NCBI RefSeq assembly: GCF_025351285.1
Contig: NZ_JANXWG010000053.1
Span: forward strand, 1-64,000
Source: Novosphingobium sp.
Lineage (GTDB): Bacteria; Pseudomonadota; Alphaproteobacteria; Sphingomonadales; Sphingomonadaceae
Direction: 5' to 3'
DNA length: 64,000 bases
Shown: positions 7,649-17,874 of the stretch, one piece after another
Numbering within the stretch: position 1 is the first letter of the stretch
How the letters are laid out: each line of letters begins with the position of its first letter
Notes under the pieces: generated by a model
Told to the model about the DNA's origin: nothing
Database searches by the model: none
The model's input: the letters and a program-made list of their open reading frames with translations, nothing else
Translations under genes and position numbers: made by a program

Positions 7649-10600
7649 ATGATCCAGATCGTGCGCGTCGCGCTGACCCGGCCCTTGACGTTCATCGTCA
7701 TGTCAATCGTGATCGCGATTGCCGGCACGATCGCCGCATTGCGCACGCCGGTCGATATCTTTCCCGATATCCGCATCCCGGTGATCGCGGTGGCCTGGCA
7801 GTATTCGGGGCTTTCGCCGGCCGACATGTCGTCGCGCATCGTGACCAATCACGAACGGATGCTCACCACCACCGTCAACGATATCGAACATATCGAGAGC
7901 CAGTCCTTGCAGGGCATCGGCATCATCAAGATCTTCTTCCAGCCCGGCACCGATATCCGCATCGCCACGTCGCAAGTTACCTCGGCCTCGCAGACCGTGC
8001 TGCGCCAGATGCCGCCGGGCGTGACCCCGCCGCTGATCCTCAATTACAACGCCTCGACCGTGCCGATCCTGCAACTGGCGCTGTCGGGCAAGGGCTTGTC
8101 CGAACAGCAGTTGTTCGACCTTGCGGTCAACCAGGTCCGTTCGCCGCTGGTGACGATCCCGGGCATTGCGATCCCTTACCCATCGGGCGGGCGGCAGCGG
8201 AACGTCCAGGTCGATCTCAACCCGTTGGCGCTGCAATCGAAAGGGCTTTCGGCGCAGGACGTGGCCAATGCGATCGCTGCGCAGAACCAGATCAACCCGG
8301 CCGGCTTCGTCAAGATCGGGCCGACGCAGTACTCGGTGCGGCTCAACAACGCGCCCGATTCGATCGCGGGGCTCAACGACTTGCCGATCAAGGTCGTCAA
8401 CGGCGCCACGATCCTGATGCGCGACGTGGCCTTCGTCCACGATGGCAGCGCGCCGCAAACCAACGTGGTCCACGTGGAAGGGCGTCGTTCGGTGCTGATG
8501 ACGGTGCTGAAAAACGGCGCGACCTCTACGCTGTCGATCGTCGAGGGGGTCAAGCAGGCGCTGCCCAGAGTGCTCGAAAACCTGCCGCCCAACTTGCGCG
8601 TGCTGCCGGTGGGCGATCAGTCGATCTTCGTGAAGGCGGCGGTGTCGGGCGTGGTGCGCGAAGGTGCGATCGCCGCGGCGCTGACCAGCCTGATGATCCT
8701 GCTGTTCCTGGGATCGTGGCGATCGACCGTGATCATCGCGGTCTCGATCCCGCTGGCCGTGCTGGCCGCGATCGCCGCGCTCGCCGCGTTCGGGCAGACG
8801 CTGAACGTGATGACGCTGGGCGGGCTGGCGCTGGCGGTGGGCATCCTGGTCGATGATGCCACGGTCACGATCGAAAGCATCGAATGGCACCTCGAACAGG
8901 GCAAGCCGGTGCTCACCGCGATCATGGACGGCGCCGCGCAGATCGTGACCCCGGCATTCGTGTCGCTGCTGTGCATCTGCATCGTGTTCGTGCCGATGTT
9001 CTTCCTGCCGGGCGTGGCGGGGTTTCTGTTCGTGCCGATGGCGCTGGCGGTGGTGTTCGCGATGATCGCCTCGTTCGTGCTGTCGCGCACGCTGGTGCCG
9101 ACGATGGCGATGTACCTGCTGCGCGCGCACGATGCACGTGCGGTGCAGACCCGGCCCAACTTGATCCAACGCTTCCAGCGGGAGTTCGAACGGCGTTTCG
9201 AGGCAGTCCGCAACGGCTATGTCGGGCTGCTCCACCGCGCGCTCCACGCCCGGCGGCCGTTCGTGCTGGGATTCACCGCCGTCATCGTGCTGTCGTTCGG
9301 GCTAGTGCCGTTGCTGGGCAGCAACTTTTTCCCGGCGGTCGATTCGGGCCAGATCGCGATGCACGTCCGCGCGCCATCGGGTTCGCGCATCGAGGAAACG
9401 TCGGCGCAGTTCGATCGCATCGGTGCGGCGGTGCGGCAGATCGTGCCGCCGGCCGAACTGGCCTCGATCACCGACAACATCGGCTTGCCGGTCAGTTCGA
9501 TCAACGCGGTCTATGCCAACAGCGGCGCGATCGGGCCGCAGGACGGTGACGTGCTGATCACGCTCAAGCCCGGCCACCGCCCGACCGAGCAAGTGGTGAG
9601 CGCCTTGCGCCTCCAACTCGGCCGGAATTTTCCCGGCACCACCTTCGCGTTCCTGCCCGCAGACATCACCAGCCAGATCCTCAACTTCGGCGCGCCGGCG
9701 CCAATCGACGTACAAGTCAGCGGCAAGGACCTCACCGCCGCGCGCGGCTATGCGCAGGCGCTGGCCATGCGAATGGCCGGTATTCCGGGCATCGCCGACA
9801 CCCGCATCCAGCAGCCCGCGAGCGCGCCTGAGCTCAGCGTGGTGGTCGATCGCGCGCGCATCGGCCAGTATGGTCTGACCGAGCGCGACGTCACCGCCAG
9901 CCTCGCCACCTCGCTCGCCGGCACGTCGCAGACCGCGCCGGTGTTCTACGTGAACCCCGAAAACGGCGTGCAATACGGTGTGGTCGCGCAAGCCCCCGAA
10001 TATACCGTCGACAGCTTGGGCGGACTTGCCGGCGTGCCGATTTCGGGCGCCAGCGGCACCCCGGTGCAAACGTTGGGCGGACTGGCGCGGCTCGCACGCA
10101 CCAGCACCATCCCGGTCACGTCGCATTACAACATCCAGCCGGTGATCGACATCTACGCAGGCACGCAAGGCCGCGATCTCGGCGCCGTAGCGGGCGATGT
10201 GCAATCGGCGATCAAGGCGGTCAAGCCGCCCAAGGGCGTGACCGTCACCATCCGCGGCCAGTACGAAACGATGCGGACCGCCTTCACCGGGCTGGGCCTG
10301 GGCATCGTGGCGGCGGTGGTGCTGATCTACCTGCTGATCGTGGTCAATTTCCAGTCGTGGGTCGATCCGTTCGTGATCGTCACCGCGCTGCCCGCCGCGC
10401 TGGCGGGGATCGTGTGGATGCTGTTCGTGACGGGCACCACGCTGTCGGTTCCTGCGCTGACCGGCGCGATCATGTGCATGGGCGTGGCCACCGCCAACGC
10501 CATCCTGGTGATCGCCTTCGCGCGCGAGCAACTGGTCGACCTGGGCGATGCCCGCGCCGCCGCCTTGCGTGCGGGGCAAGTGCGGTTTCGCCCCGTGCTG

Positions 10601-14605: not shown

Positions 14606-15682
14606 ATGCGCTTATTCGTTTCTGCCGCTTCTGCCGCCCTAGTCCTGCTGTCTCCCTCCGCGGCCTCTGCAAAAACCCCCGCTTTCGATCCGCGCGAATG
14701 GAAAGGTGCGCAGGCCGGCCTGCCGACGCAAGTGCTGACCCTGGGCAGTACGCATCTCAGCCAGTTGGACAACGCCGTCACGCCGGAAATGCTGGCGCCG
14801 CTGCTCGACAAGTTGGCCGCGTTCAAACCCGACGTGATCACGCACGAGGGCATCTCGGGTGAGCAATGTGATACGCTGAAACGCTATCCCGCCCGGTATC
14901 CCGACATGTTCGATACGTATTGCTGGCCGACCGACGATGCCGAAAAGGCCACGGGGCTGACCATCCCGGCGGCGCTGGCCGAAATCGACAAGACGTTCCT
15001 GACCTGGCCCGCCAGGCCCAGTTCGGCGCAGCGCCGGCACCTGGCCGCGGTGTTCATCGCGGGCGGCGATCGTCCATCGGCCTATGTCCAATGGCTGCAA
15101 CTGCCGCTGGCCGATCGCAAGATCGGCGACGGGATCGACGCGGCGCTGCTCAAGATCCTGACCCGCTCGCCCAAGAAGCTGAATGAAACTTACGACGTTG
15201 CGGTGGTGCTGGCGGCCCGGCTGGGGCACCAGCGAGTGTACGCCGTGGACGATCACACCGCCGATCACGTGCAGGCCGAAGCCGGGCCGGGCTTCGATCC
15301 CTATATGCAGAAGTTCTGGACCGGCGCGAAATCGCCACTGCTCGACGAAGACCGCCGGATGAGCGCGGCGATGAAGTCGGGCGTCGACTTGCTGGCGTAC
15401 TATCGTTTCATCAACCAGCCCGCCGCGCAGCGCGAATACATCACGATCGACCACCGCCGCGCAATGACCACGCCTTCGCCCGAACAATACGGCCGCGCCT
15501 ATTTCGCCTGGTGGGAGGTGCGCAACTTGCGCATGGTCTCGAACATCCGCGCCGCCTTCGGCAACCACCCCGGCACGCGCGTGCTCAACGTGGTCGGATC
15601 GTCGCACAAGCCCTATTACGATGCCTACCTCGACATGATGTCCGACGTGAAGCTGGTCGATGCCGAAACGGTGCTGAAATAG
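14606..15682 (+). CDS. DUF5694 domain-containing exported protein
   Basis: Signal peptide; TQVLTLGSTHLSQLDNAVTPEMLAPLLDKLAAFKPDVITHEGISGEQCDTL...; C-terminal RVLNVVGSSHKPYYDAYLDMMSDVKLVD. Confidence 0.75.
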   Translation: MRLFVSAASAALVLLSPSAASAKTPAFDPREWKGAQAGLPTQVLTLGSTHLSQLDNAVTPEMLAPLLDKLAAFKPDVITHEGISGEQCDTLKRYPARYPDMFDTYCWPTDDAEKATGLTIPAALAEIDKTFLTWPARPSSAQRRHLAAVFIAGGDRPSAYVQWLQLPLADRKIGDGIDAALLKILTRSPKKLNETYDVAVVLAARLGHQRVYAVDDHTADHVQAEAGPGFDPYMQKFWTGAKSPLLDEDRRMSAAMKSGVDLLAYYRFINQPAAQREYITIDHRRAMTTPSPEQYGRAYFAWWEVRNLRMVSNIRAAFGNHPGTRVLNVVGSSHKPYYDAYLDMMSDVKLVDAETVLK

Positions 15683-15686
15683 GGGC

Positions 15687-15773
15687 CTAACTTGGCGTAA
15701 CCTCCAGCGGCATCACATCGACCGCCACGCGCATCGTCTGCCCGGCGCCGCCGTGGAACACGCCGTCGAGCGG
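15687..15773 (-). pseudogene. Orphan 3' end (28 codons + stop) of the transglutaminase gene; left copy of an 87-bp direct repeat
   Basis: Matches 16948-17034 with one mismatch (15693 vs 16954, synonymous CCA/CCG); encodes PLDGVFHGGAGQTMRVAVDVMPLEVTPS*. Confidence 0.9.
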
Positions 15774-15786
15774 GGCTACATCCGTA

Positions 15787-16911
15787 TCAACCATTTCTCG
15801 ATCTGAGCAACGTCATAACCGGGCGCTCTACCAGGAACCAGCTAGCCGCACCTGCGAAAATAGACGTCAGCCACGTCATTAAACCCAGGGCAAGCAACGA
15901 ATGACCCCATCCATTGGCGATCAAGAGCTTTTCTATTGGCCAAGCGTACAAATAGACACCGTAAGAAATGTCGTTTTTATTATTTATACGTTCAATAAAT
16001 GAGCCACGACCATTTTTGGCGATACCAAAAATGAGATATGCGCCAAAAATCGCGACACCAAAGTTCGCCGTATATCGCGAAAAAAGCAGGCCAAAAAGCA
16101 TCAACCCGCAAATGACCGTCCGGCTCGGTCGAAAACTCAGGTCATCTTGCTTGGCGCGAAAAGTCGCTCCCGCGAGAAACATGCCGGTCAACCTCAATGC
16201 CTTTGGGGCATCGCCTAGCCATACCCCACTATACAGATGCCAAGAATTTAGCCTGACGTTCAAATCAGACGTCACGAAATGCATCCCGACAAGACAGATA
16301 GTCGCCAGAAATGCGAGGAAATTTTTCCGGTCAATCATCCCGGCAAGACCGAGTATGCATGCCAGAACATAGCATCTGAACTCGTATGCAATTGTCCACA
16401 TCGCGCCATTGAGTTCTGGATAGTTTGAGCCAGCAAACGCGCCGAAATTTTCTGGCGAACGCAGCAGAATTCCATTGATTGCCGCATGATAAGCCAGAGC
16501 AGGCACATTCTTGAAAATTGCGCCGCCCATCGCCGCCACGGCTGTCAAGCATATCAAGCTTGAAACAAGGAACCCAGGATAAATCCGGGCCACTCGCTTC
16601 AACAAGAAGCGTTTAGCATTAGAATTATTGACAAAACTCGCGGATATCAAAAAGCCGCTGATAATAAAAAAGCCGTCAACAGCAAGTTCGCCAAAGGATA
16701 TGGTGCCGAAAATAGAGCTGAGAATCTCTCTACTCGAATTACCGTCGACAATTTCTGGCACATGGGAGCAAATGACCAAGGAGGCAAACAAAAACCGTAA
16801 AAAGCCAAACGCGTTTTTATGATGGTCAAATCGCTGAATATCGTCGGAGACACTCAATTCACCGTTACCCCCATTTGAAGATATTGCAGAGTGTTGGACA
16901 TTCGTGATCAT
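15787..16911 (-). CDS. Acyltransferase 3 (OafA/YrhL-like) family membrane protein
   Basis: FGFLRFLFASLVICSHVPEI, GELAVDGFFIISGFLISASF, RFLLKRVARIYPGFLVSSLICL; many TM segments; visibly lower GC than flanks. Confidence 0.92.
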   Translation of the reverse strand: MITNVQHSAISSNGGNGELSVSDDIQRFDHHKNAFGFLRFLFASLVICSHVPEIVDGNSSREILSSIFGTISFGELAVDGFFIISGFLISASFVNNSNAKRFLLKRVARIYPGFLVSSLICLTAVAAMGGAIFKNVPALAYHAAINGILLRSPENFGAFAGSNYPELNGAMWTIAYEFRCYVLACILGLAGMIDRKNFLAFLATICLVGMHFVTSDLNVRLNSWHLYSGVWLGDAPKALRLTGMFLAGATFRAKQDDLSFRPSRTVICGLMLFGLLFSRYTANFGVAIFGAYLIFGIAKNGRGSFIERINNKNDISYGVYLYAWPIEKLLIANGWGHSLLALGLMTWLTSIFAGAASWFLVERPVMTLLRSRNG

Positions 16912-16947
16912 CTAAGGTCTCGGTTGAACGGTGCTACCCAGTCCGCG

Positions 16948-17034
16948 CTAACTCGGCGTAACCTCCAGCGGCATCACATCGACCGCCACGCGCATCGTCT
17001 GCCCGGCGCCGCCGTGGAACACGCCGTCGAGCGG
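16948..17034. repeat. Right copy of 87-bp direct repeat (3' end of transglutaminase CDS)
   Basis: 86/87 identical to 15687-15773 by direct reading. Confidence 0.92.
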
Positions 17035-17874
17035 CGAAACGTCGCCGTAATCGCGGCCCATGCCGATGAAGATGTAGTCGGTGTTGGCCAGTTTGTTGTT
17101 GGTGGGGTCGAAGCCGATCCAGCCCAGCGTCGGCCCGCACCACAGCGCGGTCCACGCGTGCATCGCGTCGGCACCGATCAGCCGCGGCTTTCCGGGGGGA
17201 GGGAGCGTGCGCAGATAGCCGCTGACGTAAGCCGCCGGAATACCGTGCGCGCGCGCGGCGATGACCATGATATGCGCAAAATCCTGGCACACCCCGCGCT
17301 TCTTGGCGAAAGCCTGTGCGGGCGGGGTGTCGGTCTTGGTGGCGTCCTTATCGTATTTGAACTGCTCGAAGATCGCGCGCATCAAGGCGGTGCCGGCGTC
17401 CACGATCGGTGCATCGTCGGCCAGGAACGGCCGCGCCCACACGCCGATTTCGGGCGACATCGCCGCGATCCGCGAGGGGTATAAGTAGCTTGCCGGGCAG
17501 GTGGCCGAAAGGTCGCGGCCGGTCAGCGCTTCGTTGCGAATCTGGCGCACGGTCGGCCCGCCGCCTGCCCCGCCTGCGTAGAGCCGACCCTCGAACAAGC
17601 CGCCCTGAACGATCGGCGCCTCCTGCACTTCGACACGAAAGCGGCTTTCGATGGTAAGCGTAGAAATCGGTTCCTTCAGCGTCAGCCGGCTGCGGTTGAC
17701 CACATATGGCCCCGCTTCCTCGCGCACCGAGGCGGGGCGGGGGATCACTTCCATTGTGTAGTCACGCAAGACCTGCCCCGGCCACACCGCGGGTTTGAGC
17801 CGCAAGTTGAACCGCGCAAGCCGAACAACCGTCGCGTAAGTCACCGTAGTGCGATGGCTGACATCATAGATCAT
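16948..17874 (-). CDS. Transglutaminase-like (bacterial N-terminal) family protein
   Basis: MIYDVSHRTTVTYATVVRLARFNLRLKP; catalytic KKRGVCQDFAHIMVIAARAHGIPAAYVSGYL; DAMHAWTALWCGPTLGWIGFDPTN. The track's 720-aa ORF is a 5' over-extension. Confidence 0.93.
   Translation of the reverse strand: MIYDVSHRTTVTYATVVRLARFNLRLKPAVWPGQVLRDYTMEVIPRPASVREEAGPYVVNRSRLTLKEPISTLTIESRFRVEVQEAPIVQGGLFEGRLYAGGAGGGPTVRQIRNEALTGRDLSATCPASYLYPSRIAAMSPEIGVWARPFLADDAPIVDAGTALMRAIFEQFKYDKDATKTDTPPAQAFAKKRGVCQDFAHIMVIAARAHGIPAAYVSGYLRTLPPPGKPRLIGADAMHAWTALWCGPTLGWIGFDPTNNKLANTDYIFIGMGRDYGDVSPLDGVFHGGAGQTMRVAVDVMPLEVTPS

Follow-up and report, generated by a model that had tools for sequence, protein, structure and literature searches.

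A foreign acyltransferase gene between duplicated transglutaminase gene ends in Novosphingobium: a recent insertion scar, possibly left by an integrase-less element

How did a single foreign gene come to be flanked by near-identical duplicates of a chromosomal gene's 3′ end, the gene itself being unbroken? The question arises in a Novosphingobium sp. genome, where the window analysed here (the whole stretch of 64,000 nt at positions 1 to 64,000 of contig NZ_JANXWG010000053.1) holds a direct repeat of 87 bp at 15687-15773 and 16948-17034, identical at 86 of 87 positions and with a start-to-start spacing of 1261. The repeat, on the minus strand, spans the last 28 codons of a transglutaminase (TG) gene together with its stop, TAG (CTA on the plus strand), with one edge exactly at the stop and with a sole, synonymous mismatch (CCA/CCG, both Pro) in the third-last codon, stop counted. 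The right copy forms the 3′ end of an intact TG gene of 308 aa (16948-17874, minus strand; PF01841 and PF08379), while the left copy is an orphan tail with an open frame of only 41 aa, recognized by a profile of TG tails at 4e-16. The stop of this orphan tail lies 4 nt (GGGC, 15683-15686) from the stop (15680-15682) of the convergent left neighbor, a DUF5694 gene of 358 aa (14606-15682, plus strand; PF18950, E 1.4e-17). Between the copies there is one intact acyltransferase-3 ORF (374 aa, 15787-16911, minus strand; PF01757, E 1.5e-25) and no other, beginning 36 nt downstream of the TG stop on the same strand. The repeat, its extent and synonymous mismatch, the orphan and completed tails and the single gene between them had all been described in an earlier sequence-only reading and were borne out by recomparison, as was the lack of an integrase, the ORFs nearest to the acyltransferase being those of DUF5694 and TG.

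The duplication is far beyond chance. In about 409 kb of the same genome, with a few kb masked, the 87-bp pair was the sole direct repeat of at least 60 bp, the others being of 30 and 32 bp, and no direct repeat of at least 60 bp was present in 835 kb of related loci. The whole locus, cargo gene included, occurs once in the assembly. Since that assembly is a draft (4.08 Mb in 163 contigs, 99.66% complete), a false join at the repeat has to be weighed, yet the contig is continuous over 109 kb, the cargo gene is single, the copies are told apart by one base and by their inner edges and both junctions fall at sensible gene boundaries, making an artefact the least probable of the explanations considered. 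The TG sequence is the same whichever copy of the repeat stays, such that excision would be seamless.

The gene between the copies is foreign in composition, with a GC content of 0.472 against 0.653 in the window, in keeping with the insertion proposed in the sequence-only reading. It matches PHROG 3333 (O-acetyltransferase, E 1.5e-33) and PHROG 6705 (O-antigen acetylase, E 4.6e-10), and by tblastn it has about 25% identity to the oac gene of Sf6. Two of its nearest relatives (43-45% identity) lie in the tail/lysis modules of temperate phages from IMG/VR contigs, one at 43% (L163, 4947-6182) between genes for a tail completion protein and a baseplate protein and the other at 45% (L162, 4971-6107) in a tail-fibre/endolysin region, so that the cargo can be regarded as a phage-type O-acetyltransferase. 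In both phages the GC3 of the acyltransferase gene is markedly below that of its neighbors, which is typical of cargo genes in phages. Both phages are of sphingomonad type. The other relatives are single chromosomal genes without a flanking repeat, and around some 20 relatives searched no repeat bracketed the gene. At one further locus (L170, 10887-13140, on contig C1 of genome G165) two relatives adjoin in tandem with a common 36-bp direct repeat. On these comparisons the gene type travels, partly by phage, and the product probably O-acetylates a surface polysaccharide. The residence of the cargo family in prophages as well is new relative to the earlier reading.

No promoter-like site was found around the acyltransferase gene, including in the 36-nt spacer between the TG stop and its ATG (16912-16947, minus strand), which has no further copy in the genome. 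Together with the start of the gene so close behind TG on the same strand, this suggests that the gene is probably expressed by read-through of the TG operon.

The distribution of the parts among relatives bears on when the insertion arose and how often. TG orthologues are present in 90 of 196 Novosphingobium genomes, DUF5694 in 19 and an acyltransferase of this type in seven including the source, the last also in three of 401 family genomes, again counting the source. The best TG orthologues within the genus have 62-65% identity and a scan of named genomes for closer TG relatives found none; by this measure the source genome is isolated, with no relative above about 65% TG identity among those compared. 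Downstream of TG at 75 loci of relatives (up to 10 kb) there was no tail copy, no acyltransferase of this type and no DUF5694, no relative examined had TG and DUF5694 together and synteny over the 75 TG loci and four DUF5694 loci revealed no common layout. The genes that follow TG vary widely among species and often include a convergent gene that starts within 20 nt of the TG stop, indicating that a tail-to-tail neighbor is ordinary at the end of this gene. In one genome (G111, contig C94, 8999-9876) the TG orthologue appears to lie in two frames, residues 1-254 in one and the tail in the other, through a frameshift or a sequencing error.

A search with a 20-sequence profile of the TG tail through the 196 genus genomes (90 TG carriers) and the 401 family genomes (91 carriers) detected no orphan tail besides the one described here. 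Nor did viral contigs, phage records and plasmid records yield a mobile-element copy, the single match in a phage record being a full TG in an unverified scaffold. The suggestion in the earlier reading that the TG end might be an insertion hotspot was thus not upheld, there being neither a further orphan tail among the carriers nor an integrase-linked TG tail in the phage collections; the comparison with related genomes that it had proposed found the insertion absent from each relative examined, in keeping with a recent, one-off event. Over the first 60 nt of the repeat the TG tails of relatives are at most 85% identical to that of the host (mean 73%). Set against about 15% divergence over this stretch in the best relative, one difference in 87 indicates that the insertion is recent. 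An identity of 86/87 also implies that the donor was very close or that the copies were homogenised afterwards.

What happened at the junction can be approached through the inner edge of the left copy. Read on the minus strand into that copy, the sequence is GGTTGATACGGATGTAGCC followed directly by CCGCTCGAC, with TGA as the acyltransferase stop. Beyond the repeat the two copies diverge, as had been noted before, the inner edges being GATGTAGCC on the left and GACGTTTCG on the right. The inner edge of the left copy (15774-15788, minus strand, GATACGGATGTAGCC) overlaps this TGA; its last 9 nt agree at 7/9 with the TG consensus of 59 relatives and at 5/9 with the TG of the host, and its last 15 nt at 10/15 and 6/15. 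In the window, scores this good against the profile have a frequency of about 5e-4 for 9 nt and 2e-4 for 15 nt. Judging from these 9-15 bases, the left copy probably runs on into the TG tail of another lineage over a few codons. The earlier proposal that the two tails derive from different alleles thereby gains moderate support at the inner edge, which is nearer to the family consensus than to the TG of its own genome.

This edge weighs upon a rival account of the repeat, in which the host copied its own TG tail twice during joining, by fill-in of a staggered break or by template switching, to leave a long target-site duplication. Such a local duplication would account for the 86/87 identity without a matching donor, for an inner edge at which similarity breaks off abruptly and for the single occurrence. 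The TG-like inner edge (p about 2e-4) would then be a coincidence, as would the repeat edge at the stop codon, and the resemblance favors a crossover between two TG tails over pure local duplication. In addition, no Ku gene was found in the source genome, 99.66% complete as it is, so that classical end joining of a staggered break by Ku/LigD is unlikely. Overall, local duplication appears unlikely. The match of the inner edge to the TG of other species would also suit an origin of the left copy from a second TG, acquired laterally, of which all was deleted but a tail homogenised by gene conversion, leaving the acyltransferase between the two. This calls for an acquisition, for a deletion with its end precisely at the acyltransferase stop and for a conversion, in a set of 90 carriers without one tandem TG of this type, and is highly improbable.

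One reciprocal crossover between a circle and the chromosome leaves the insert flanked by a direct repeat. The reading preferred here, with about an even chance of being right, is that the locus is an integrase-less remnant similar to a cis-mobilizable element (CIME). The O-acetyltransferase gene, foreign and of a kind that temperate phages carry as cargo, would recently have entered this Novosphingobium on a small circular or circularised DNA that also carried a TG tail, and a single reciprocal crossover between that tail and the 3′ end of the chromosomal TG would have produced attL (the displaced native tail, 15687-15773), the cargo and attR (the replacement tail, 16948-17034). TG would stay intact and have the cargo as its downstream neighbor on the same strand, the two probably being read together. 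The crossover would have been the work of a site-specific recombinase belonging to a larger prophage or integrative element and since lost, or acting in trans. An element that has to restore its target gene is expected to have a repeat edge at the stop codon, and an inner edge resembling the TG of another lineage is as expected of an element-borne attachment site.

The genome of the host has 12 tyrosine-recombinase hits. On contig C57 (L180, 8208-15887) the 3′ end of a tRNA-Thr gene is duplicated over 32 bp, the copies 7.6 kb apart with a tyrosine-recombinase match (9275-9712) between them, and this stretch looks like an intact integrative element; gene-end elements thus appear to exist in this host. 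Elsewhere in the genome (L159, 2474-6485, contig C79) a tyrosine-recombinase gene has two distant transglutaminase-family matches nearby. Several observations count against the preferred reading: there is no recombinase gene inside the insert, there is no second TG-tail insertion with or without an integrase in the 90 and 91 carriers, the phage sets yielded no TG tail linked to an integrase and the 87-bp repeat is longer than the 32-bp tRNA-Thr yardstick of the same genome. Moreover, an attachment site from another species should differ from the host tail by about 15-27%, yet the copies agree at 86/87, which would call for a near-relative donor or later homogenisation.

An alternative is a crossover that never involved a dedicated recombinase, in which circular or concatemeric DNA with the acyltransferase and part of the TG tail of a related bacterium integrated through ordinary homology (RecA-type, or Campbell, integration). 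The direct-repeat product would be the same as that of a site-specific event, an integrase would be unnecessary (none targeting TG was found in TG carriers or phage sets) and the divergent, TG-like inner edge would be donor TG beyond the exchanged or converted part. Such integration nevertheless needs a small circle carrying one cargo gene and a TG tail that ends at the stop codon, and near-perfect identity confined to 87 bp again needs a near-identical donor or later gene conversion; it is possible, if rather unlikely. Quite improbable is a minimal free-standing cassette made of one phage-type cargo gene and the 87-bp host 3′ end as its entire attachment site, which would be mobilised in trans by the recombinase of another element and replace the tail at each insertion.

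Among known systems the closest to the preferred reading are CIMEs, which have lost their integration and transfer genes and kept attL and attR (PMC5704250). In Streptococcus salivarius, cargo-bearing CIMEs of 1.2-13 kb occupy the 3′ ends of rpmG, rpsI, fda and rplL (PMC7563491). The present locus likewise has its cargo, a single ORF without integration or transfer genes, between direct repeats of a protein gene's 3′ end (87 bp, 86/87, retained as putative att sites), and at 1.26 kb it is within the reported size range (PMC7563491). It differs in its 87-bp coding repeat, in a cargo family common to phages rather than conjugative elements and in lacking an ICE or IME in tandem; for a TG target no functional parent element is known, and no parent ICE or IME with the same att sites was found in the 90 genus and 91 family TG carriers. 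The locus may be said to work like a CIME, its membership of that class being unproven. With elements that insert at gene 3′ ends by a tyrosine integrase it shares an intact target gene and a displaced native tail on the far side, in contrast to which it has no integrase in the insert and no second insertion at TG. As for its cargo, it has the acyltransferase-3 superfamily domain and the O-acetyltransferase and O-antigen acetylase matches of phage serotype-conversion genes of the Sf6 oac type, and its relatives in L162 and L163 lie in phage modules, whereas the present gene is not part of a phage and sits where a chromosomal gene ends.

Three other classes of element were considered and rejected. 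An autonomous tyrosine-integrase element was discarded on finding no integrase ORF in 15687-17034. An integron gene cassette was excluded because the repeat is coding TG sequence that folds no better than its shuffles (z 0.17 and -0.17), with no attC-like fold. For an insertion sequence or a transposon with terminal inverted repeats, the best inverted match of the inner ends was not significant (p 0.03-0.15) and there was no transposase.

The locus is a true, unusual and recent insertion scar, for which an explanation of known type is coherent but unproven; one case, lacking an empty site, is not enough by itself to change the picture. If the explanation is true, this would be a very small, clean and recent case in which a virus-type gene for surface modification has come to rest behind a core gene that stays whole, as well as a remnant that lacks an integrase and whose target, a protein gene, has no known parent element. 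It would also show why tools that seek integrases miss elements that have decayed or are mobilised in trans.
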